The position numbers and the translations under genes were made by a program. DNA of 64,000 nucleotides from Cognatiyoonia koreensis (GTDB lineage: Bacteria > Pseudomonadota > Alphaproteobacteria > Rhodobacterales > Rhodobacteraceae): NCBI RefSeq assembly GCF_900109295.1, contig NZ_FOIZ01000001.1, forward strand, positions 1,674,001 to 1,738,000, read 5' to 3'. Shown piece by piece: positions 5,582-21,288 of this stretch. Below the pieces are notes generated by a model. It ran no database searches. It was not told the origin of the DNA and saw only the letters and a list, made by a program, of their open reading frames with translations. The stretch's first letter is position 1; each line of letters opens with the position of its first letter.

Positions 5582-6459
5582 TCAGATGCAGCGAGTCCCT
5601 GATCAGATTTCAGATAATTGAAGAATTCACTATCTGGTGAAAGGACCATCGTGGAGTTTCCGGGGGTCAATGATTTGCCGTAAGCTTCCATCGACCGGTA
5701 GAATTCAAAGAATTCCGGGTCCGCACCGAAGGAATCTGCAAAAATCCGGTTTCGTTCCGCATCTGCCTCACCACGAATGATCAGCGACTGACGATTCGCA
5801 TCAGATTCAAGTTCGACCACGGTCCTGTCAGCGGCAGCCTGAATGGCCTGCTGGGCCTCACGACCACGCGCGCGCAAATCTGCGGCTTCCTCGTCCCGTT
5901 CAGCGATCATACGGGCAAATGTTGCCGTTTGGTTTTCCTGCGGCAGGTCGGTGCGCTTCAGACGGACGTCGATGATGGTCAGACCAAGGTTTTCGGCCCG
6001 CGCATCCGCACGATCACGAATACGGTTCATCAGCGTCACACGATCGACCGACAGGATGTCGTTTGACGTCACCGAACCCAGCACCTCACGGATACTGTCG
6101 TCCAGAACCAGATCAAGCGAGCGTTCAGCGTTCTGCTGACCGCCGGCACCGACGGCCTGACGGAACTTGGTGACATTTTCGATGCGATAACGCGCGAAAG
6201 CATCAACGATCAGGATGCGCTGGTCTTCCGGCGTAACCCGGATCGGATCGGGGTCACGGGACAAGATCAGGTCGGAATACCGCACGACTTCGTCGATAAA
6301 CGGTGCCTTGAAGGCAAGGCCCGGCTCTTCCTGCACCTGAACGACACGACCAAAGCGCAATACCAGCGCCTTTTCACGTTCGTCCACGATGAACAGGGAT
6401 GACAAGCCCACGAAGATCAGAATTGCCAGAAGTGGCAGAAGTAGAAGTGAGCGGTTCAT
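5578..6459 (-). CDS. hflC: FtsH protease modulator HflC
   Basis: 293 aa SPFH/band-7 protein with one N-terminal membrane anchor (residues 4-26), a band-7 domain (about 25-200) and an alanine/glutamate-rich coiled coil with ARGREAQQAIQAAADR. With HflK it forms a large periplasm-facing cage around FtsH that tunes turnover of membrane substrates. Start overlaps the hflK stop by one base (TGATG) and the stop overlaps the DUF2065 start by four, a tightly coupled operon. Length is normal for alphaproteobacterial HflC. Confidence 0.96.
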   Translation of the reverse strand: MNRSLLLLPLLAILIFVGLSSLFIVDEREKALVLRFGRVVQVQEEPGLAFKAPFIDEVVRYSDLILSRDPDPIRVTPEDQRILIVDAFARYRIENVTKFRQAVGAGGQQNAERSLDLVLDDSIREVLGSVTSNDILSVDRVTLMNRIRDRADARAENLGLTIIDVRLKRTDLPQENQTATFARMIAERDEEAADLRARGREAQQAIQAAADRTVVELESDANRQSLIIRGEADAERNRIFADSFGADPEFFEFYRSMEAYGKSLTPGNSTMVLSPDSEFFNYLKSDQGLAASE

Positions 6460-7652
6460 CAGTTCGACCCTCCGGAGCGGCGTAGTTCGTTAAGCGGGAG
6501 GTATGGCACGACGCTCTGGCTTCCCTCGCCGCCTGTTTCATCAAGCAGGATCAGATCGACGCCGCCCAGGACACGTTCCATCGTCTCAAGGTAAATCCGC
6601 TTGCGCGTTACCTCAGGGGCCAGTTCATACTGTTCAAGTACGGCCGAGAAACGCGAGGCTTCACCCAATGCATTGTTGACCACCTCAGCGCGATATCCTT
6701 CGGCTTCTTCAAGAATGGCCGCAGCTTCACCGCGGGCTTCGGCAACGACCCGGTTGGCATATGCGTCAGCGACGTTTTGTAAACGGACGCGTTCCTGTTG
6801 GGCGTTCTGTACTTCACGGAACGCATCAAAGGGAGAGCGGCGCATGGTGACCATATCGCCACTGTCATTCATGGCAGTGACTTCTACCTGAATGTCAGGC
6901 GCTTCCGCCTTGTTGAAGTTCACGCGGACGATGTTCACGCCGCTATCGTATTCATCAAGTGTCGATTGGATGAGCGATTGCAGCCGTTCAGCGATCGCAC
7001 CACGGTTGGTGTTCAGAATTGGCGTCAGCTCTGATTGGGCGATAATTTCGCGCATGGCAGATTCAGACACGGCACGGATCGTGCGTTCCGGATCGGCCAG
7101 CGTGAACCGGTACCGCGCGGGATCGATAATGTTCCACACGACCTGAAAGTCGATATCCACGATGTTTTCATCGCCCGTCAGCATCAGACCGGCGTCCTGC
7201 CCGGTGGTGGACGTACCGATGTCGATCCGTTGTTCCTGCGTGACCGGAACTTTTTCGTAGGTCACGACGGGCCAAGGCGCAAAGTTAAGGCCAGGTTCCC
7301 CAACTTCGGAAAACTCACCGAAGAACAGCTCTACCGAGCGTTCTTCCGGGTTCACGCGGTAGAACGAGTTCCACGCCCAGAATAACAAGAGCAATATAAG
7401 ACCACCGAAGACGACCATCTTCGTCGGGAATGGCGGTTCGCTTCCTGCACCAGCGCCGCCGCCTTTGCCGCCGCCCATCAGGACGCGCAACTGTTCGCGA
7501 CCCTTGTTTACAAGATCGTCGATCTCGGGGATCTGAGGTCCGTCGTTACCGCCGCCGGGACGACCCGGCGGGCGCCGCCGATCATCATCATCGCCACGAT
7601 TTCCGCCGTTGTTTCCGCCGCCCCCCCAGGGGCCACCGTTATTACCTGCCAT
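6459..7652 (-). CDS. hflK: FtsH protease modulator HflK
   Basis: 397 aa. The first about 75 residues are a Gly/Asn/Asp/Pro-rich low-complexity tail in the cytoplasm, followed by a single membrane span (FPTKMVVFGGLILLLLFWAW), the SPFH/band-7 domain and a coiled coil rich in AEARGEAAAI. It pairs with HflC. The ATG at 7652 is followed by MAGNNGGPWGGGGNNGG, as usual for the family in this order. It lies about 75 bp downstream of the glutathione reductase stop, so it may have its own promoter or be read through. Confidence 0.96.
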   Translation of the reverse strand: MAGNNGGPWGGGGNNGGNRGDDDDRRRPPGRPGGGNDGPQIPEIDDLVNKGREQLRVLMGGGKGGGAGAGSEPPFPTKMVVFGGLILLLLFWAWNSFYRVNPEERSVELFFGEFSEVGEPGLNFAPWPVVTYEKVPVTQEQRIDIGTSTTGQDAGLMLTGDENIVDIDFQVVWNIIDPARYRFTLADPERTIRAVSESAMREIIAQSELTPILNTNRGAIAERLQSLIQSTLDEYDSGVNIVRVNFNKAEAPDIQVEVTAMNDSGDMVTMRRSPFDAFREVQNAQQERVRLQNVADAYANRVVAEARGEAAAILEEAEGYRAEVVNNALGEASRFSAVLEQYELAPEVTRKRIYLETMERVLGGVDLILLDETGGEGSQSVVPYLPLNELRRSGGSN

Positions 7653-7726: not shown

Positions 7727-9193
7727 TCAAGCGGTTCGCATGGGTTCTTTCATCGTCACAAGTTCTTCTGCCATTGTGGGGTGAACTGCAACCACTGCGT
7801 CAAAGTCTTCTTTAGTTGCACCCATCTTGACTGCGATGCCAGCGAGCTGAATCATTTCTCCCGCGTGCTCTGCGACGATATGACAGCCAAGCACCTTGCG
7901 GGTGTCCTGGCAAACGATGAGTTTCATCAGTACGCGATCACTGCGACCGGCAAACGCCTGCTGCATCGGCTTGAAGCTGGTACAATAGACCTCTATCGGG
8001 CCTTCGTCGCGGGCTTGCTCCTCTGTTTTTCCGATTGTGCCAAGTTCGGGCTGCGTGAACACGGCAGACGGGATCAGGTCGTGATCAATCGGTGTCGGGT
8101 TGCCCTTGAACACGGTTTCCACGAATGCCATCGCTTCGCGGATCGCGACCGGAGTAAGCTGCACACGGTTTGTGACGTCTCCGATGGCATAGATCGATGG
8201 CACCTTGCTCTGGCTGTATTCATCGACGACAACCTCGCCACCCCGCCCCAGTTCGACGCCTGCTTCCTCCAGTCCCATGTTGCCGGTGTTTGGTGCCCGA
8301 CCTGTGGCGAACAGCACGTGGTCGAAGACTCGCTCTGTTCCGTTGGTGGCCTTGACCCAGATCGGGCCTTTGGCCTTTTCGCGGGTGTCACTTTTCGGGT
8401 TTTCAGAGATGTCTTTGGCATGTTGCGCACTTGCGCCCATCGTCGCATCCGATCCTGTCGGAGTCGGGTCGTCGTTGCGCTCATCTGCGGGGGCCATTTC
8501 GACGATATCTGTTCCAAGGTGCACATCGATGCCATGCGCGTTCATCGACTCTGCCAGAAGTCCGCGCGCTTCGTCGTCAAAGCCGCGCAGGATCTGGGCC
8601 CCGCGATAGTATTGCGTCACTTCCACGCCAAGCCCGTTGAGAATGCACGCAAATTCACACGCGATGTAACCGCCGCCGATGATCAGAATTGATTTTGGCT
8701 TTTCCTCCATCAGGAAGATGTCGTTGGACACGATCCCCAAATCAGCGTTTGGCAGATCGGGTCGCACCGGATGACCACCGGTTGCAACCAATACGTGCTT
8801 GGCAGTGACCGTCTTGTCGCCGACCTGCACGGTATGCGCATCTTTCAGCGTCGCGCGGGCATCGAAAATCTCGACATCGGAACTGTTCAGAAGTTTGCGA
8901 TAGACCCCTTCGAGCCGGTCAAGTTCATCATGCAGTTTCGATCGGAATGCGGGCCAGTCAAAATTACCGATGCTGGCATCCCAACCAAATGCCTGCGCAT
9001 CTTCGACCGCTGCGGGATAGCCGCTGGCAAAAACCATCAGCTTCTTGGGCACGCAGCCCCGGATCACGCAGGTGCCGCCCATGCGGTATTCTTCGGCAAG
9101 TGCGACCTTTGCCCCACCCGAGGATGCGACTCGCGCCGCTCTTACTCCGCCGGAACCGCCACCGATGACAAAAAGGTCGTAGTCAAAAGCCAT
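7727..9193 (-). CDS. gor: Glutathione-disulfide reductase
   Basis: 488 aa FAD/NADPH disulfide reductase that keeps glutathione reduced in the cytoplasm. The FAD fold is GGGSGGVRAARVA (residues 11-23), the redox pair is Cys42/Cys47 in GGTCVIRGCVPKKL, the NADPH fold is IIGGGYIACEFA, and the C-terminal dimer interface contains VVAVHPTMAEEL, which supplies the active-site His. Odd feature: roughly residues 236-275 (8369-8488) form a polar, repeat-free insertion rich in Asp, Thr, Ser and Lys where the family normally has a short turn, making the protein about 35 residues longer than most. All catalytic motifs are intact. Confidence 0.94.
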   Translation of the reverse strand: MAFDYDLFVIGGGSGGVRAARVASSGGAKVALAEEYRMGGTCVIRGCVPKKLMVFASGYPAAVEDAQAFGWDASIGNFDWPAFRSKLHDELDRLEGVYRKLLNSSDVEIFDARATLKDAHTVQVGDKTVTAKHVLVATGGHPVRPDLPNADLGIVSNDIFLMEEKPKSILIIGGGYIACEFACILNGLGVEVTQYYRGAQILRGFDDEARGLLAESMNAHGIDVHLGTDIVEMAPADERNDDPTPTGSDATMGASAQHAKDISENPKSDTREKAKGPIWVKATNGTERVFDHVLFATGRAPNTGNMGLEEAGVELGRGGEVVVDEYSQSKVPSIYAIGDVTNRVQLTPVAIREAMAFVETVFKGNPTPIDHDLIPSAVFTQPELGTIGKTEEQARDEGPIEVYCTSFKPMQQAFAGRSDRVLMKLIVCQDTRKVLGCHIVAEHAGEMIQLAGIAVKMGATKEDFDAVVAVHPTMAEELVTMKEPMRTA

Positions 9194-9294
9194 GTCGCGA
9201 TTCCAGTCCTGTCGGTGTTCTGTCGGGGCAACTTAGTCACCACGCCACAGAACAACAACGGCATGTCACGAAATCTTTGAACGCACTGCGACTG

Positions 9295-11001
9295 CTAGAG
9301 AATGAAATCGTCGGTTTGCAACGTGCCCATATGGGTTACTTCGATAATGTGGTCCGTTCGGCCGTTACCATTGTTGTCGATCTTCAGGAAACCGTCGTCA
9401 AAACGCACCTGCGCGATTCCGTTGCCGTAGAAGTCGGCGTTCCCGATGAACCCGAGGTTATCGAACGCGCTGAGGTCGATTTTGTCGGTTCCGCTTTGAA
9501 AGCCTTTGATGACATCACGTTCATCACGCGATACGCCAGTATCGCCAGGACGGAACACGAAGGTATCGCGATGTTCACCGCTTTCCCAACCTTGTAGCGT
9601 GTCGGCACCCTCACCGCCGTAAAAGACGTCCCGACCGCTGCCACCCGTCAGCGTATCATCGCCCGTCCCGCCATACATGCGGTCATTACCGTCGCCCCCG
9701 TGAAGTTCGTCATGGTTCGTGTTGCCCGCCATCCTGTCGTGACCGTTGCCACCGAAAAGTTCGTCGCGACCTATTTCGCCGACGATCCGGTCGTCGCCGT
9801 CATCCCCGTGGAGCGAGTCATTGCCGCGACCGCCTTCGATGTCATCGAAGCCATCGCCACCGCCGGCGCGATCATTGCCTTCGCCGCCACGGATCATGTC
9901 TTCTGAGTCACCACCGTAAAGTTCGTCATGTCCGTCGCCGCCATAGATCCGGTCGCGACCCGTGTCGCCGCCGATCACGTCGTCGCCGTCCTTGCCAGCA
10001 AGGATGTCACTCCCCTCTCCGCCGCCGATCCGGTCATCCCCGTCGCCACCGGCAATCCGGTCACGGCCTTCTTCGCCCCAAAGGCTGTCGTTCCCGCTGC
10101 CGCCGTCTAAATAGTCGTCACCCTGACCCCCGGCGACCTTGTCATGCGCTGTTCCGCCATAAAGGCGATCATCGCCCCAACCACCATAGACTTCATCCGA
10201 ATTGCCACCGCCATAAACGCGGTCATCGCCATCACCGCCGGAAACCGTATCAAGGCCGGTGCCGCCATAGACCTTGTCGTTATCGTCTTCGCCATTGAAT
10301 TTGTCGTTGCCAGACCCGCCATACATCAGGTCGTTGCCATCCCCGCCCCCAGACTGGTCATGGCCTTCGTCGCCGCGCACGGTGTCACGGCCGTCACCTG
10401 CCCAGATCTTGTCATTGCCGTCACCGCCCTTGAATACTTCGTTGCGGGCATCAGCAAACACTTCGGAGTAGTCGCCGGATTTCAAGGTGTCATCACCGGA
10501 CCCTCCCCAGACAACGTTCTTTCCATTCAAAAAGTAATTCAGCCATCCCGCGACATCGGCGACACGTTCGTTTTCATCACCATCCTCGTTGCGAAACCGG
10601 CCATTCGCGATGGCAAAGCCGAAGTGATAGATCGCATCAGCTGTCGTATTGATGAACTGGCGGCCCTGAAAGCGCAGCGACCCGCCATCACCCTGCACAA
10701 GGTGAAATCCGGTTTCCTCATTGCCTTCGTCGTCGCCGTGCCCGTCTACGAAAAGATCGTACAGGTCTGAATTGGCACGCACGTAGTCGCTTATCTTGCG
10801 CAGATCACCCGGCGACAAAAGACCGTCGTCGTTCACGCCCGTGGCCTCGATCGCATCCACGATCACGCCATTCATCAGAATTGCCGCGTCCTGCCCGCCT
10901 TGCAGGTCTGCATTGGTGACAGAATCCGTTAGTCCTGTGTCTTGCGCCAGATAGTCGGCAATCGATTCAAGGTTGGACAGCATTTCTGAACGGGTTGGCA
11001 T
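9295..11001 (-). CDS. RTX calcium-binding protein, probably type I secreted
   Basis: 568 aa, very Asp/Gly rich. Residues 1 to about 160 form a non-repeat domain with no Sec signal peptide and an EF-hand-like stretch (GVNDDGLLSPGDL). About 32 consecutive GGxGxDxUx nonapeptides follow (roughly 165-465), then a C-terminal about 90-residue module with DVIKGFQSGTDKIDLSAF, like the M10 peptidase C-terminal/type I export signal. Such proteins fold on calcium binding outside the cell. No protease, lipase or other catalytic motif is visible, and no type I ABC exporter is in the window. The start has AGGAG about 9 nt upstream. It separates rpiA from gor. Confidence 0.9.
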   Translation of the reverse strand: MPTRSEMLSNLESIADYLAQDTGLTDSVTNADLQGGQDAAILMNGVIVDAIEATGVNDDGLLSPGDLRKISDYVRANSDLYDLFVDGHGDDEGNEETGFHLVQGDGGSLRFQGRQFINTTADAIYHFGFAIANGRFRNEDGDENERVADVAGWLNYFLNGKNVVWGGSGDDTLKSGDYSEVFADARNEVFKGGDGNDKIWAGDGRDTVRGDEGHDQSGGGDGNDLMYGGSGNDKFNGEDDNDKVYGGTGLDTVSGGDGDDRVYGGGNSDEVYGGWGDDRLYGGTAHDKVAGGQGDDYLDGGSGNDSLWGEEGRDRIAGGDGDDRIGGGEGSDILAGKDGDDVIGGDTGRDRIYGGDGHDELYGGDSEDMIRGGEGNDRAGGGDGFDDIEGGRGNDSLHGDDGDDRIVGEIGRDELFGGNGHDRMAGNTNHDELHGGDGNDRMYGGTGDDTLTGGSGRDVFYGGEGADTLQGWESGEHRDTFVFRPGDTGVSRDERDVIKGFQSGTDKIDLSAFDNLGFIGNADFYGNGIAQVRFDDGFLKIDNNGNGRTDHIIEVTHMGTLQTDDFIL

Positions 11002-15849: not shown

Positions 15850-15960
15850 TCCTTATTCTCGACACGAAATAATACCGCATATTTCCCCTTCTTGTTCCGG
15901 ATTTAGAACCAATTGATGGTGAATAAGGTGTCACTGGGTTTGGAGAAAGCGAGCAAAATA

Positions 15961-18060
15961 ATGGTTGAGTCGAGCAAGATTCTTACCGTGTCCTATGGCA
16001 CCTTTTCGTGCACGCTGGAAGGTTTCGAAGATTCCTTTGGCACGATGAAGGCGATTGCGGAGTATTTCCGCGATTTGGCACAGGGCGACCGGTACTTCGG
16101 GGCAGAACCCCCCGCACCTGACGCAGAGATGCTGACACGCATTGCGGAAAAAGAGATTGCCCGCCGGGTCGAAGCCCGCGCGGACGAAAGCGGAATCGTG
16201 CTGCGCGCCGTGGATGCCGCACAGGCACCTGCCGCGGCACCGGCCATGCCGCCGGTTGCGACACCACCGACAGAGGTGAAAGTCGCAGCAGTCGCGACAG
16301 CCGCTGTCGCAGATCATGTCGAATCCACCCACGCTGCGACGGCAGACGCGGATGGTGACGTCGCTAGGCCGGAGGCCGGGGAAGTAACTGCCCCAACGCT
16401 CGTGGCCTCCAGCCCGGCGGCGGCTGACGCTGACGACGCGCTTGACGATGACATGGCCGAAGAAATGGACGTCACTGCTCCGGCGGCCAGCTTTGCCGAA
16501 ATGGATGCCGGCCAGATTTCAGAAGTGCCAGCGCATCCGGACGCCGACAGCGTTGCGGCCAAATTGCAGCGCATCCGCGCAGTGGTTGGTCCTGCTGCCG
16601 CCGACGACGACATGCTCGAAGATGAGCAGACCGAATCCTTTGCCGATGACGCCGAGGAAGAGATCGCAGACATGCCACCAGCCAGCGACGATTTCGCCGC
16701 CTTTGCCGCCGAAGACTCCTTCGACGAAGAGGACGAAAACGATTTTGCCGCCGACTTGGATAACATCGACACTGAAGCGCAAGACGATGAGAGTGCAGAC
16801 GACGATATCGCTGAAGCCGAAGAAGACGAGGCCGAACTGGCTGACGATTCGACGGGCGAAGACGATGACGCCGAGGCTGACGCGATGGAAGACGACAGTG
16901 ACGCTGACGTCGCTGCTGATGCCGACATCGACGATGACAGCGCGGCGGAATCATTCGACCAAGACGACGCTGCCGAAGCGGACGAAGCAGAAGCTGAAGT
17001 CGCCGAGGACGCGGAACCCGCTGTCGAAGCCCCAAAGCAGAACTTCCGTGCCCGCATCCTGCGCGTCGCCAAGATACCTGCGCTTTCAGCCCAAGCAGAC
17101 GAAGCAGACGACTTGTCTGAAGACACTGCAGACGCCGTACGCGAAAGCATCGCGGCCCAGTCGGGTGACGATGTGGTTGCAGAGGCTGACGGTGCCTATG
17201 ATGATATCGACGATGCAGACGTCGCCGAACTGGCAGACATTGACGAACCATCAGAAGCCACGCTGTCTGACGAGGACGAAGCAGAACTGCTTGCCGATCT
17301 GGCAGAGGTCGAGCGGGAGATTGAGGAAACGAGCGAAGCGCCCGCCGCTGAAGCCGCGCCCGAAGCCCCCGCAACGCCAACTGGCCGTGACATCCTGCCG
17401 GAAGCTGATGACGCCGCAATGTCGCGCATCATGGATCAGGCGGACGAACAGCTGTCCGAACCCGAAGGCAGCCGCCGCCGCAGCGCAATTGCGCAGCTGA
17501 AAGCAGCCGTCGCCGCGACCGAAGCTGCCCGTCAGCTGGGTGACAAGGGTGAGGACCAGGCTTCCAAGGAAAACGCGTTCCGCGATGATCTGAACCAAGC
17601 CGTACGTCCCCGCAGTGGCGATGAACTGCCACGCACCCAACTGCGCACGGAACGTCCGCGTCCTGCTCCGCTCAAGCTTGTCCCCGCCCAGCGCGTCGAC
17701 GAAGCGGACACCGCAGACAGCGACGCCGCCCCTGTGCTGCCGCGCCGCGTTGCCAGCGATGCAGGCATGGTCGATGCCGGCAACTTTGCCGACTTCGCAG
17801 CAGAAATGGGCGCGACGGAGCTGCCAGATCTGCTGGAAGCCGCTGCTGCCTACACGGCCTATGTCGAAGGTGTCGAGGACTTCTCGCGCCCGCAGATCAT
17901 GAAGAAGGTTCAGGCGTCCGCGACAGAAGAGTTCAGCCGCGAAGATGGCCTGCGCTCTTTCGGCACCTTGCTGCGTCAGGGTCGGATCAGCAAGGTCCGC
18001 AACGGTCGCTTCCAGGTTTCGGACCAGACACGCTTCAAGCCGGAAAAGAAAGCCGGCTGA
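15961..18060 (+). CDS. Large acidic low-complexity protein, conserved ends
   Basis: 699 aa from ATG 15961. The frame is open upstream with TTG/ATG/GTG at 15913-15919, but MVESSKILTVSYGTFSCTLE matches the usual N-terminus of Rhodobacteraceae homologues as I remember them. Residues 1-70 are an ordered domain (ILTVSYGTFSCTLEGFEDSF, AIAEYFRDLAQGDRYFG). Roughly 155-465 is dominated by Asp, Glu and Ala, surely disordered. The last about 110 residues are ordered and basic at the end (MGATELPDLLEAAAAYTAYV, FGTLLRQGRISKVRNGRFQV). No catalytic motif, signal peptide or membrane span is seen. Function unknown; an ordered-disordered-ordered scaffold is an inference. Confidence 0.85.
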   Translation: MVESSKILTVSYGTFSCTLEGFEDSFGTMKAIAEYFRDLAQGDRYFGAEPPAPDAEMLTRIAEKEIARRVEARADESGIVLRAVDAAQAPAAAPAMPPVATPPTEVKVAAVATAAVADHVESTHAATADADGDVARPEAGEVTAPTLVASSPAAADADDALDDDMAEEMDVTAPAASFAEMDAGQISEVPAHPDADSVAAKLQRIRAVVGPAAADDDMLEDEQTESFADDAEEEIADMPPASDDFAAFAAEDSFDEEDENDFAADLDNIDTEAQDDESADDDIAEAEEDEAELADDSTGEDDDAEADAMEDDSDADVAADADIDDDSAAESFDQDDAAEADEAEAEVAEDAEPAVEAPKQNFRARILRVAKIPALSAQADEADDLSEDTADAVRESIAAQSGDDVVAEADGAYDDIDDADVAELADIDEPSEATLSDEDEAELLADLAEVEREIEETSEAPAAEAAPEAPATPTGRDILPEADDAAMSRIMDQADEQLSEPEGSRRRSAIAQLKAAVAATEAARQLGDKGEDQASKENAFRDDLNQAVRPRSGDELPRTQLRTERPRPAPLKLVPAQRVDEADTADSDAAPVLPRRVASDAGMVDAGNFADFAAEMGATELPDLLEAAAAYTAYVEGVEDFSRPQIMKKVQASATEEFSREDGLRSFGTLLRQGRISKVRNGRFQVSDQTRFKPEKKAG

Positions 18061-18081
18061 TCACCGTCACAAGACGCACAA

Positions 18082-18113
18082 ACAACGGCGCAAGGGAAAC
18101 CTTGCGCCGTTGT
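18082..18113. terminator. Perfect 14-bp hairpin with GAAA tetraloop between convergent genes
   Basis: Arms at 18082-18095 and 18100-18113 pair without mismatch (ACAACGGCGCAAGG and its complement) around a GAAA loop. It lies between the stop of the acidic protein and the stop of the cyclooxygenase-like gene, so it probably ends transcription from both sides. There is no clear T-run on either side, so termination may be rho-assisted or the hairpin may mainly stabilise 3' ends. Confidence 0.7.
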
Positions 18114-19697
18114 CTATTCTGGCACCCAGTCTTTCCGGGTCATGCTTATGAACGCGTCGCCCACGCCGCCCGCGACGTTGCGGCCAACCATATCGGCCAG
18201 TGACCGTGTCGACTTGATTGCCGACCAGCCCGGCCCTGAAAACGTTGACCGCCTGAAGACATGTTCCGACAAGAGCGGGTTCGTCAGTGCCTGACTGAAC
18301 GCATCCAACGCGACGAACATCAGCACCAATCCAGGCAACGGGCTGTTCGTCACCCGGTCTTCGCAAAACAGACCAACGTGAAAATCGACATCTCGGGGAT
18401 GGCTGTAGTGGCGCGCCAAAAGTGAAGCCACCGTTGGATCGGATGAAATATCACTGAACCGCTGTGGCCGCTTCTGGCCAAGATAGGCGCAGTAATCCGA
18501 ATAGCTGGCCAGCTGGCAGTGCCGGTCCTGCTTGATCGATTCCCGTTCCACGTTCAGCAGCATCGCACCGGTATTTCGCGGGCCTAGTTCTGCCGCCCGG
18601 TTCGCGCTCATGTCCTTGAATCCCTGGAGCAGCCCGCCGTCGATCAGGATCGCATTGTTCATGAAGGTTTTGCGCGTGGGAAATGTCGTGCCATTCCATG
18701 TGATCTGATCTGGAATCAGCGCGTGCCAGCGATAGAGCAGACTAAATTCAGTCGTGATCCAATTTGGCTTGTTCCAGACTGCACGCCACGCGACGGACGG
18801 GTCAGCGCGCAGATTGAACGGCATTGGAGAGATGTGATTGATGTAATCCTCGACCACGATCTTGATGAACATGACGATCATCGCATTGCGTGTTGTTTCG
18901 AACACCCGTGTGTCGTCCCAATCGGTATGGGCCGCTGCAATTTCAGCCGCCAGACGATTGTGTTCACGCAGTAAAACTGTGTTGATCATGGCGACCTGTG
19001 GTACTGAATTCACCCGGTCACCGCCCACCGCAAAAAGCTTTGCCCGGCGATCCGCTTCAAGGCTGCTAAGTCCCAAAGGTGGATCGAGTGCTGCGAACTC
19101 TGGTTTGACAGCGTCGTTTTCATAAAGAAACGGCGGATATATCTCGCCGTTAATGACCTGAAACTTGAGCTGCCCGCGTTCGTCGCCAACCTCGCTATTC
19201 AGGCGCAGCGCGCGGGTTTGCGCGGTCGTTCGACCGTAAAGCGTGCAGAGGTCGATTTCATGGTTCGAGGTGTTGCGCTTGAACCTGTCAGCCAAGTCCT
19301 CACCTTCGGGCGTCAGGTCTTCGGATTCCGTGCGGATGAAGCCATCTGTCAGATATTGCGCAAATGCCGGGAACAAGCATGTCGACTTCGGGCAAAGCCG
19401 CTGGCTGCCCTCGCCGCGCGCAAAAAGTTCCAACAAGTCATCCACCGCGGGCGGATCATCACGTTTATCCGGCGGCAGATGCCGCCCGCTCCAGCGTCGA
19501 TCCGTCAGGCCGGACCAGGACACGTAATCATGTTTTGTCGACAACGGGTGCGGACGCGCGCGTGCTCGTTTGACCACCCGGTTAACTGCCCACCGGTTGG
19601 CGAAAACGGCCAAAGGCTCGACCGCTTGAACAATGGAAAAGGCGAATGCTTGAAGTCTGTAGGACAAAGTCGGCATGGCGACACTCAATCTATGCAT
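18114..19697 (-). CDS. Cyclooxygenase-like animal-type haem peroxidase family protein
   Basis: 527 aa. Sequence follows prostaglandin G/H synthase almost from end to end, read against remembered COX-1/2 sequences: KHDYVSW near residue 57; IDLCTLYGRTTAQTRALRL; LKFQVINGEIYPPFL; LLREHNRLAAEI; KIVVEDYINHISPMPFNLR; then TEFSLLYRWHALIPD, giving Tyr322 and His325 at the places of COX catalytic Tyr385 and proximal haem His388. The peroxidase distal His (COX His207) appears to be Asp118 in FAQYLTDGF. Arg40 may match Arg120. The N-terminal hydrophobic helices resemble the COX membrane-binding region; no EGF domain or signal peptide is seen. ATG 19697 was chosen over an in-frame TTG two codons earlier. 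It lies downstream of DUF2842 and purA on the same strand. Substrate unknown. Confidence 0.85.
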   Translation of the reverse strand: MHRLSVAMPTLSYRLQAFAFSIVQAVEPLAVFANRWAVNRVVKRARARPHPLSTKHDYVSWSGLTDRRWSGRHLPPDKRDDPPAVDDLLELFARGEGSQRLCPKSTCLFPAFAQYLTDGFIRTESEDLTPEGEDLADRFKRNTSNHEIDLCTLYGRTTAQTRALRLNSEVGDERGQLKFQVINGEIYPPFLYENDAVKPEFAALDPPLGLSSLEADRRAKLFAVGGDRVNSVPQVAMINTVLLREHNRLAAEIAAAHTDWDDTRVFETTRNAMIVMFIKIVVEDYINHISPMPFNLRADPSVAWRAVWNKPNWITTEFSLLYRWHALIPDQITWNGTTFPTRKTFMNNAILIDGGLLQGFKDMSANRAAELGPRNTGAMLLNVERESIKQDRHCQLASYSDYCAYLGQKRPQRFSDISSDPTVASLLARHYSHPRDVDFHVGLFCEDRVTNSPLPGLVLMFVALDAFSQALTNPLLSEHVFRRSTFSGPGWSAIKSTRSLADMVGRNVAGGVGDAFISMTRKDWVPE

Positions 19698-19770
19698 ATT
19701 CAAATGCAGACAGAATGCAGCAGATCCGCCGATCGGGGTAGTCAGGTTTGCCTGACCCTTGCTCAGGAAC

Positions 19771-19983
19771 CTAGTCGGCGTCCGGGTCTGATTGCCCGAT
19801 GCCTTTGAAAACGAATTTTAGTGGAAACACCCATGCGACGCCAAGAACGACGTAGAGTACGAACTGTACCGCCCGCGGCCATTCAGTCGTGTTGCTCATC
19901 AGTGTGACGACCAGCACGATGTAGGCGGGCAACCCGACCACCAGAATGAACAATGACCAGCGCCGGCGGGCTTTGTACGTCAT
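19771..19983 (-). CDS. DUF2842 small membrane protein
   Basis: 70 aa with two membrane segments (SLFILVVGLPAYIVLVVTLM and AVQFVLYVVLGVAWVFPLKF) after a basic start MTYKARRRW, the pattern of DUF2842 proteins found in alphaproteobacteria. It begins 9 bp after the purA stop, as commonly seen in Rhodobacteraceae, so it is in one transcript with purA. Function unknown. Confidence 0.85.
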   Translation of the reverse strand: MTYKARRRWSLFILVVGLPAYIVLVVTLMSNTTEWPRAVQFVLYVVLGVAWVFPLKFVFKGIGQSDPDAD

Positions 19984-19992
19984 GACTGTCCT

Positions 19993-21288
19993 TTAGTCAG
20001 CGAAGGGATCGGTGACGAGGATGGTATCGTCCCGTTCGGGTGAGGTTGAAACTAGTGCAACGGAACACTGGATCAACTCTTCGATCCGGCGCACGTATTT
20101 GATTGCCTGCGCCGGCAGGTCGGCCCAGGACCGCGCCCCTTCGGTGCTTTCCGACCAACCTTCAATTTCCTCATAGACGGGCCTGCAACGCGCCTGCTGA
20201 TCGGCCGCTGTCGGCAGATAGTCCAGTATTTGCCCGTCAAGTTCATAGCCTGTGCAGATTTTCAGCGTTTCAAACCCATCGAGCACATCCAGCTTGGTCA
20301 GTGAAATGCCCGTAACCCCAGACGTCGCGCATGTTTGGCGCACAAGGGCGGCATCAAACCAGCCGCAGCGCCGCTTGCGGCCTGTGACAGTGCCGAATTC
20401 ATGGCCCCGCTCGCCCAGACGCTGCCCGTCTGCATCGTCCAACTCTGTCGGGAACGGGCCTTCGCCGACACGCGTGGTGTAGGCTTTGACAATCCCCAGC
20501 ACATAGTCGATGGCGGTCGGCCCAAGGCCGACACCCGTCGCCGCCTGCCCCGCAATGACGTTTGATGACGTCACAAATGGGTATGTGCCAAAGTCGATAT
20601 CAAGAAGGGCACCCTGCGCGCCTTCGAACAGGATCCGCTTTCCGGATTTGCGCTGTTCGTTCAGCACTTTCCAAACCGGGGCGGCGTATTCGAGGATTGC
20701 GGGTGCAATGTCCTGCAGTTGCGCAACCAATGCGTCGCGATCCACGGGATCAATTCCCAGCCCACGCCGCAATGGGTCATGGTGCTGCAGCGCGCGATCG
20801 ACGCGGGCTTCAAGCGTGGCCGGGTCCGCCAGATCGGCGACCCGCACGGAACGGCGGCCAACCTTGTCTTCGTATGCCGGGCCGATCCCGCGACCGGTCG
20901 TGCCGATCTTTGTGCCCTTGCTTGCAGCCTCTTCCCGGGCACGGTCGAGTTCGCCATGGATCGGTAAGATCAGCGGTGTATTTTCCGCAATCATCAGCGT
21001 TTGGGGCGAAATATCGACACCTTGCTCACGGATCGTCGCGATCTCCTTGACCAGATGCCAAGGATCCAGCACCACACCGTTCCCGATGACAGAGAGCTTG
21101 CCGCCACGCACGACGCCCGATGGCAGCGCGTTCAGCTTGTAGACTTTACCATCAATGACGAGGGTGTGCCCGGCGTTGTGCCCGCCCTGAAAGCGGGCGA
21201 CGACGTCAGCGCGTTCGGACAGCCAATCCACGATCTTGCCTTTGCCTTCGTCGCCCCATTGCGCGCCGACAACCACTACATTCGCCAT
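19993..21288 (-). CDS. purA: Adenylosuccinate synthase
   Basis: 431 aa. It makes adenylosuccinate from IMP, aspartate and GTP, the first committed step to AMP. Motifs: [21 protein letters not shown] (GTP-binding, with catalytic Asp) at the N-terminus, [12 protein letters not shown] with catalytic His, [13 protein letters not shown], and [14 protein letters not shown] segments later ([22 protein letters not shown]). Length normal. Start [18 protein letters not shown] is unambiguous. First gene of purA-DUF2842-(cyclooxygenase-like). Confidence 0.97.

Follow-up and report, generated by a model that had tools for sequence, protein, structure and literature searches.

The nearest characterised relative of the protein described here is the linoleate 10S-dioxygenase (10S-DOX) of Nostoc punctiforme (Brash et al. 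2014), which, as described in two later papers, converts oleic and linoleic acid to 10S-hydroperoxides and yields a product that is acted on by a separately encoded catalase-related lyase (PMC13049297; PMC9579011). The first of these papers prints the distal motif of 10S-DOX as F143tdsF, names the cyclooxygenase (COX) residues His207, Val291, Tyr348, Tyr385 and His388, reports that COX, 8R-DOX and 10S-DOX differ at the positions of His207, Val291 and Gln204, and counts 8R-DOX among the enzymes differing from COX at the distal position (PMC13049297). It describes a conserved Arg at the Val291 position as one that 'may merit investigation', and notes how little is known about the peroxidase activity of dioxygenases (DOXs). 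In a DyP peroxidase, a distal Asp deprotonates H2O2 with an Arg alongside (PMC6153280), and the term catalytic has been applied to the Arg in the R-x-x-E motif of peroxidases (PMC4420034). Here we describe a minus-strand gene in a 64,000-nucleotide stretch of the Cognatiyoonia koreensis genome (contig NZ_FOIZ01000001.1, positions 1,674,001 to 1,738,000; the whole stretch is hereafter the window), the product of which we take to be most plausibly a new, uncharacterised representative of the bacterial 10S-DOX type, encoded in a genome that resembles those of the Roseobacter group. To the whole reading, a COX-fold haem dioxygenase of this type with a radical route assisted by Asp118, we assign a probability of roughly three in four (0.76).

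Fold, family and the distal haem site

The predicted structure (520 residues; 55-row input, pLDDT 92.1, replacing a first model of 21 rows with pLDDT 83.4) has COX-1 and COX-2 throughout as its nearest solved structures, with alignments beginning at model residue 1, opposite COX residue 89. Helices 6-18 and 20-35 of the model superpose on the COX membrane-binding region. An earlier note on this DNA, made from the letters alone, had proposed a COX-type fold with such a helical N-terminus and had placed Tyr322 and His325 (numbering here follows the full 527-residue frame) at COX Tyr385 and His388; these proposals are borne out, and both residues, along with Tyr285, are invariant in the wider of two alignments. 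That alignment (84 rows) sets the window protein beside 83 frames taken from 82 loci (79 genome-contig loci and three family genomes), at about 35-71% identity and from five phyla; frames scoring under 100 bits were excluded, as were the loci of the window itself. The genome-contig loci were recruited by peptide words of the query, with a cap at 80 of 123, and forms still more distant may exist. The closer alignment (121 rows) joins the window protein to the best 120 of 3416 homologues above threshold, one of which (P0001) is the window protein itself.

The carboxylate anchor of COX is a different matter. Arg40, offered in the earlier note as a match for COX Arg120, does not hold that place: Val41 faces Arg120, none of the 84 rows has Arg at column 41, and 34 have it at column 40. 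Tyr355 and Ser530 of COX are likewise not kept, being Met292 (a column with Tyr in 35/84 rows) and Ala466 (Ala in all 83 rows with letters there), so that with these three replacements the protein does not retain the COX manner of anchoring a carboxylate.

At the distal site an ungapped COX alignment pairs FAQYLTDGFIRT with FAQHFTHQFFKT, setting Gln114 on Gln203, Thr117 on Thr206 and, as had been noticed by eye, Asp118 on His207. The check across homologues that had been proposed for this Asp found it in 121/121 close rows and 84/84 wider rows, constant across the five phyla. Far from marking a defect, this Asp is what one expects of a bacterial enzyme group that is already known. A protein of N. 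punctiforme NIES-2108 (L073), 38% identical to the query over 514 columns, carries FTDSF at 143, Tyr305 and Tyr342, the residue numbers given for 10S-DOX (PMC13049297). Since the distal Asp is already visible in the published 10S-DOX sequence, the surprise is limited; PMC13049297 does not settle its role, and in the open-licence literature no study was found on the distal Asp/Arg pair of these dioxygenases. A tree built by a quick method, with no animal COX included, with long outgroup branches and used only for its in-family splits, places the query inside a 17-row group (support 99) within an 86-row bacterial family (support 99). With the 10S-DOX type the query thus shares PF03098, YRWH, the distal Asp, Arg at the Val291 place, predicted COX-like helices and the clade.

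A control set of weaker PF03098 proteins (36 loci) gave 22 frames that match the family profile, two row pairs among them coming from one gene or contig. The distal motif is GQF(I/L)DHD in 14 of these frames and FGQYFDHG in one, and (F/Y)R(F/L/V)GH occurs in 18. The only bearers of YRWH, L103 and L104, both read FAQ(W/Y)(F/L)TD, so that the distal Asp travels with YRWH in this sample. L102 has YRMH, a His in the distal helix and a look like that of the alpha-dioxygenases (alpha-DOX), and L119 has neither motif. The canonical motifs of PF03098 peroxidases, Q-x-x-D-H and (F/Y)R(F/L/V)GH, are absent from the query, which reads QYLTDG and YRWH instead; a second PF03098 gene in the same genome (L002, G000:C1:909415-909996) is of the canonical peroxidase type, with FLGQFIDHD and AAYRFGH.

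Two other placements were considered and set aside. A slip of one residue, by which Asp118 would be an Asp of D-H-D, is argued against by the ungapped COX match, the Thr at +3 and the similar flanks; in L009 and L010, the two canonical peroxidases whose distal helix the family profile could align, the profile opens a gap and pairs the two Asp residues (the other 14 of 16 being unaligned there), a placement that is drawn by the invariant Asp. Nor does the query have a distal His at another position, since residue 228, the second distal site, is Arg.

Residue 228 is Arg in 77/84 wider rows and in all 121 close rows, and in 15 of the 16 control proteins (of 22) used in this alignment it falls on the R of R-x-x-E, the exception being L102. 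By alignment, Arg228 retains the catalytic-Arg position of peroxidases, a position at which COX is without Arg. The remaining seven rows (L084-L088, L090 and L091) have His there (GLEH), retain the distal Asp and form one tree group (support 99 in the table of splits, 96 at the drawn fork); they are a natural Asp/His version of the pocket.

Possible chemistry and competing explanations

Judging from sequence and model, oxygenation of fatty acids is the most likely activity of the enzyme, and the fatty-acid oxidation that the earlier note had entertained as one role is probable. We infer an active, haem-binding enzyme with radical chemistry, the substrate of which is probably an 18:1 fatty acid. 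A hydroperoxide would oxidise the ferric haem bound by His325, and Asp118, together with Arg228 and Gln114, may provide the proton transfer and O-O cleavage that are the job of His207 in COX; the oxidised haem would generate a radical on Tyr322, this radical would abstract an allylic hydrogen of an unsaturated fatty acid in the channel, and addition of O2 would give a fatty-acid hydroperoxide that is released, with the two N-terminal helices setting the channel mouth at the membrane face. For Asp118 and Arg228 this would extend DyP-style chemistry by analogy. The earlier note had supposed that the enzyme was without a peroxidase base of its own and would need another way to the radical. That the Asp deprives it of a route to the radical is not supported: the Asp is the same in all 84 rows, including the lineage of the Nostoc 10S-DOX, which is active on oleic and linoleic acid; in a DyP peroxidase Asp is the H2O2-deprotonating group (PMC6153280); and Arg228 is present.

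Several considerations weigh against this reading. The role of Asp118 may be a structural one, with haem oxidation perhaps slow and reliant on the product hydroperoxide; the His found at the Arg228 position in 7/84 rows means that Arg is not strictly required. The position of oxygenation is not transferable from 10S-DOX, because identity to it is 38% and pocket residues differ. In a survey of 79 related loci with flanks of at most 6 kb, 48 are without a catalase-related gene in the flank, and in the window's genome neither catalase-related queries (run without a positive control) nor PF00199 (run with a control, and matching 5/14 control genomes) found anything, such proteins being divergent. 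With no partner lyase found there, the link to a pathway comes from relatives only.

A possible alternative, differing from the preferred reading in distal chemistry only, is a dioxygenase weak in peroxidase activity, in which the distal Asp would not be an acid-base group, haem oxidation would be slow or proceed via other hydroperoxides, and the tyrosyl radical would be long-lived, as supposed for plant alpha-dioxygenases. Plant alpha-DOXs do retain oxygenase activity with lowered peroxidase activity (PMC4420034); however, Asp118 and Gln114, each in 84/84 rows, are more in keeping with a functional distal site than with a relaxed one. It is improbable that the protein is a peroxidase or other oxidase that shares the fold only and has no fatty-acid oxygenase activity, as might be read from the An_peroxidase match and from the names of relatives, for the most part 'peroxidase family protein' or 'heme peroxidase' (best 120 of 3416): the equivalents of Tyr385 and Tyr348 and the N-terminal helices are retained, the canonical peroxidases differ from the query in both motifs, and the nearest characterised relative is a dioxygenase. 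A true cyclooxygenase yielding prostaglandin-like endoperoxides is very improbable, even though all nearest solved structures are COX and some relatives (among the matches listed, from the best 120 of 3416) bear the JGI label 'prostaglandin-endoperoxide synthase 2', since Arg120, Tyr355, Ser530 and His207 are all replaced and arachidonate synthesis is not known in bacteria of this group. A decayed, inactive form peculiar to the window's gene, to which an accessory and patchy distribution might lend itself, is scarcely credible given an intact frame and an Asp invariant in five phyla and in the lineage of the active Nostoc enzyme.

Within the reading of a 10S-DOX-type dioxygenase, we would advance only tentatively that a whole bacterial branch of the COX fold swapped its His site for a DyP-type Asp/Arg pair, that this carboxylate activation evolved independently and drives a tyrosyl radical, and that Roseobacter-group bacteria may thereby turn membrane-type 18:1 fatty acids into new oxylipins; such a swap includes the Asp/His version seen in one group. 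A compact bacterial COX relative would be a model for starting a tyrosyl radical in the COX fold without a distal His, and the dioxygenase points to oxylipin synthesis in Roseobacter-group bacteria, in which no study of such an enzyme was found in the open-licence literature.

Gene, neighbourhood and distribution

The minus-strand frame is intact from ATG (19697) to TAG (18114), and the plus strand of the interval is broken by stops. Position 19676 is the likelier start because 78/120 homologues (best 120 of 3416) start at Met8, with 38 starting earlier and four later; 58 of the 120 are 520 residues long. The protein matches PF03098 (An_peroxidase; peroxidase-cyclooxygenase superfamily) with E 1.5e-37 and 129.9 bits (cut-off 25), an NCBIfam scan of it matched no family, and the close relatives that bear names are Roseobacter-group bacteria (among the matches listed). 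Its placing behind purA and a DUF2842 gene on the same strand, as first described, is confirmed by Pfam (Table 1). The inverted repeat beyond its stop is likely a two-way terminator; a consensus terminator scan did not pick it up (its T run is short). GC content is 0.569 for the dioxygenase gene, 0.572 for the window, 0.606 for purA and 0.619 for the convergent gene.

Table 1. Features of the dioxygenase locus in window coordinates, with residues numbered on the 527-residue frame
Feature	Position	Strand	Remark
COX-like haem fatty-acid dioxygenase, probable CDS	18114..19676	-	520 aa, start Met8 of 527-aa frame, stop included
Seven extra codons of 527-aa frame	19677..19697	-	Probably upstream of true start
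Two N-terminal helices, residues 13-42	19572..19661	-	Superpose on COX membrane-binding region (predicted model)
Gln114	19356..19358	-	COX Gln203; Gln in 84/84 rows
Asp118	19344..19346	-	Place of COX distal His207; ungapped COX alignment
Arg228	19014..19016	-	COX Val291 and catalytic Arg of peroxidases (R-x-x-E); alignment
Tyr285	18843..18845	-	COX Tyr348; 84/84 rows
Tyr322	18732..18734	-	COX Tyr385, expected radical site (YRWH); 84/84 rows
His325	18723..18725	-	COX His388, expected proximal haem ligand; 84/84 rows
Perfect inverted repeat, 14 bp, 4-base loop	18082..18113	.	Between convergent gene ends
Convergent 715-aa gene, function unassigned	15913..18060	+	No Pfam family; marks empty site in relatives
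DUF2842 gene	19771..19983	-	Upstream; PF11003 E 1.4e-18
purA, adenylosuccinate synthetase	19993..21288	-	Upstream; PF00709 E 3.9e-176

That no lipid genes lie nearby is right for the window and does not extend to the relatives, for a catalase-related gene, probably hydroperoxide-handling, stands in the fetched flank of 31/79 loci (in L034 via a short frame, E 8.6e-15). Carriers include Nostocales, other cyanobacteria (L049, L051, L052), the Mameliella/Phaeobacter group (L027-L031), Roseovarius (L086) and Ruegeria haliotis (L019), the dioxygenase of which is 69% identical to the query. In the Nostoc locus L073 the adjacent gene product has weak Pfam catalase similarity (E 4.9e-8); Pfam gives no match for the neighbours in L019 and L028, and the match in L086 falls below the cut-off, the label in these three resting on clustering with the Nostoc protein. 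On the tree the label 'catalase-related neighbour' needs three changes, of which at least two are forced (L034 and L086 unlabelled). Because an L028-type query, less sensitive than a profile, matches only 11/197 family genomes, chance nearness is, informally, unlikely. In flanks of at most 6 kb, no other fetched locus shares the purA or convergent-gene clusters with the window, and among these loci the location is not conserved in the way that the earlier note had raised.

Other neighbours were also seen. Genes of one cluster, RoxA-like cytochromes c by Pfam (L028 being the sole member scanned), lie beside the dioxygenases at L027:4050-5573, L028:4009-5394, L031:4050-5597 and L034:10678-12063; RoxA-like dihaem proteins include rubber oxygenases. 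Ramlibacter sp. WS9 (L034) has two COX-like dioxygenase genes near-adjacent, at 5914-7533 and 8440-10512. In Nostoc a Tle1-like phospholipase-type hydrolase gene (PF09994; L073:4834-5841), a possible fatty-acid supplier, precedes the dioxygenase, and its cluster occurs in 18 loci.

Strong matches (E <1e-140) occur in 4/198 family genomes, the window's own included, and in 0/2 same-genus genomes; PF03098 of any kind occurs in 23/289 class genomes. The window's junction (18060-19771, 1710 bases) holds the dioxygenase. In three of ten relatives examined (G199:C14, of the same genus, G006:C22 and G003:C1) the DUF2842 and convergent-gene matches are 60-103 bases apart with nothing between, which makes the dioxygenase an accessory gene that this junction has either acquired or lost. 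In G002 and G009 the two matches are widely separated or sit on separate contigs, and G198 has them on separate contigs; G001 has a weak convergent-gene match at another place, and in G078, G101 and G048 the dioxygenase is elsewhere in the genome and the convergent gene has no match.

Comparison with known enzymes

The fold of DyP peroxidases is unrelated. The likeness to them is a mechanistic analogy only, a distal Asp and Arg over the haem (PMC6153280). Plant and bacterial alpha-dioxygenases belong to the same superfamily and their N-terminal helices align, although neither sequence nor fold brings the query nearer to alpha-DOX than to COX. Fungal linoleate dioxygenases (the DOX of LDS/AOS fusions) share the Arg at Val291, reported as conserved in DOXs (PMC13049297), and tyrosyl-radical dioxygenation of fatty acids, predicted for the query; unlike the query, they are fused to P450 domains, 8R-DOX is described as without COX-type membrane-binding helices (PMC13049297), and in CcDOX1/2 the distal His is reportedly retained (PMC9579011).

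COX-1 and COX-2 (PGHS), the aspirin targets of animals, share with the query the catalytic Tyr, the proximal His, Gln203, Tyr348 and the predicted fold, which matches along the entire protein starting at COX residue 89. The query has Asp for His207 and Arg for Val291, does not retain Arg120, Tyr355 and Ser530, and, starting at COX residue 89, is without the EGF domain. From 10S-DOX the query differs at the places of COX Gly526 (Val462 against Ile483) and Ser353 (Ser290 against Thr310), and no catalase-related gene lies beside it or was detected in the window's genome. The likeness to 10S-DOX extends to a similar length, an FTD-type distal site, YRWH, the Tyr348 equivalent, Arg at the Val291 place and, for the query in the predicted model, N-terminal helices resembling those of COX.
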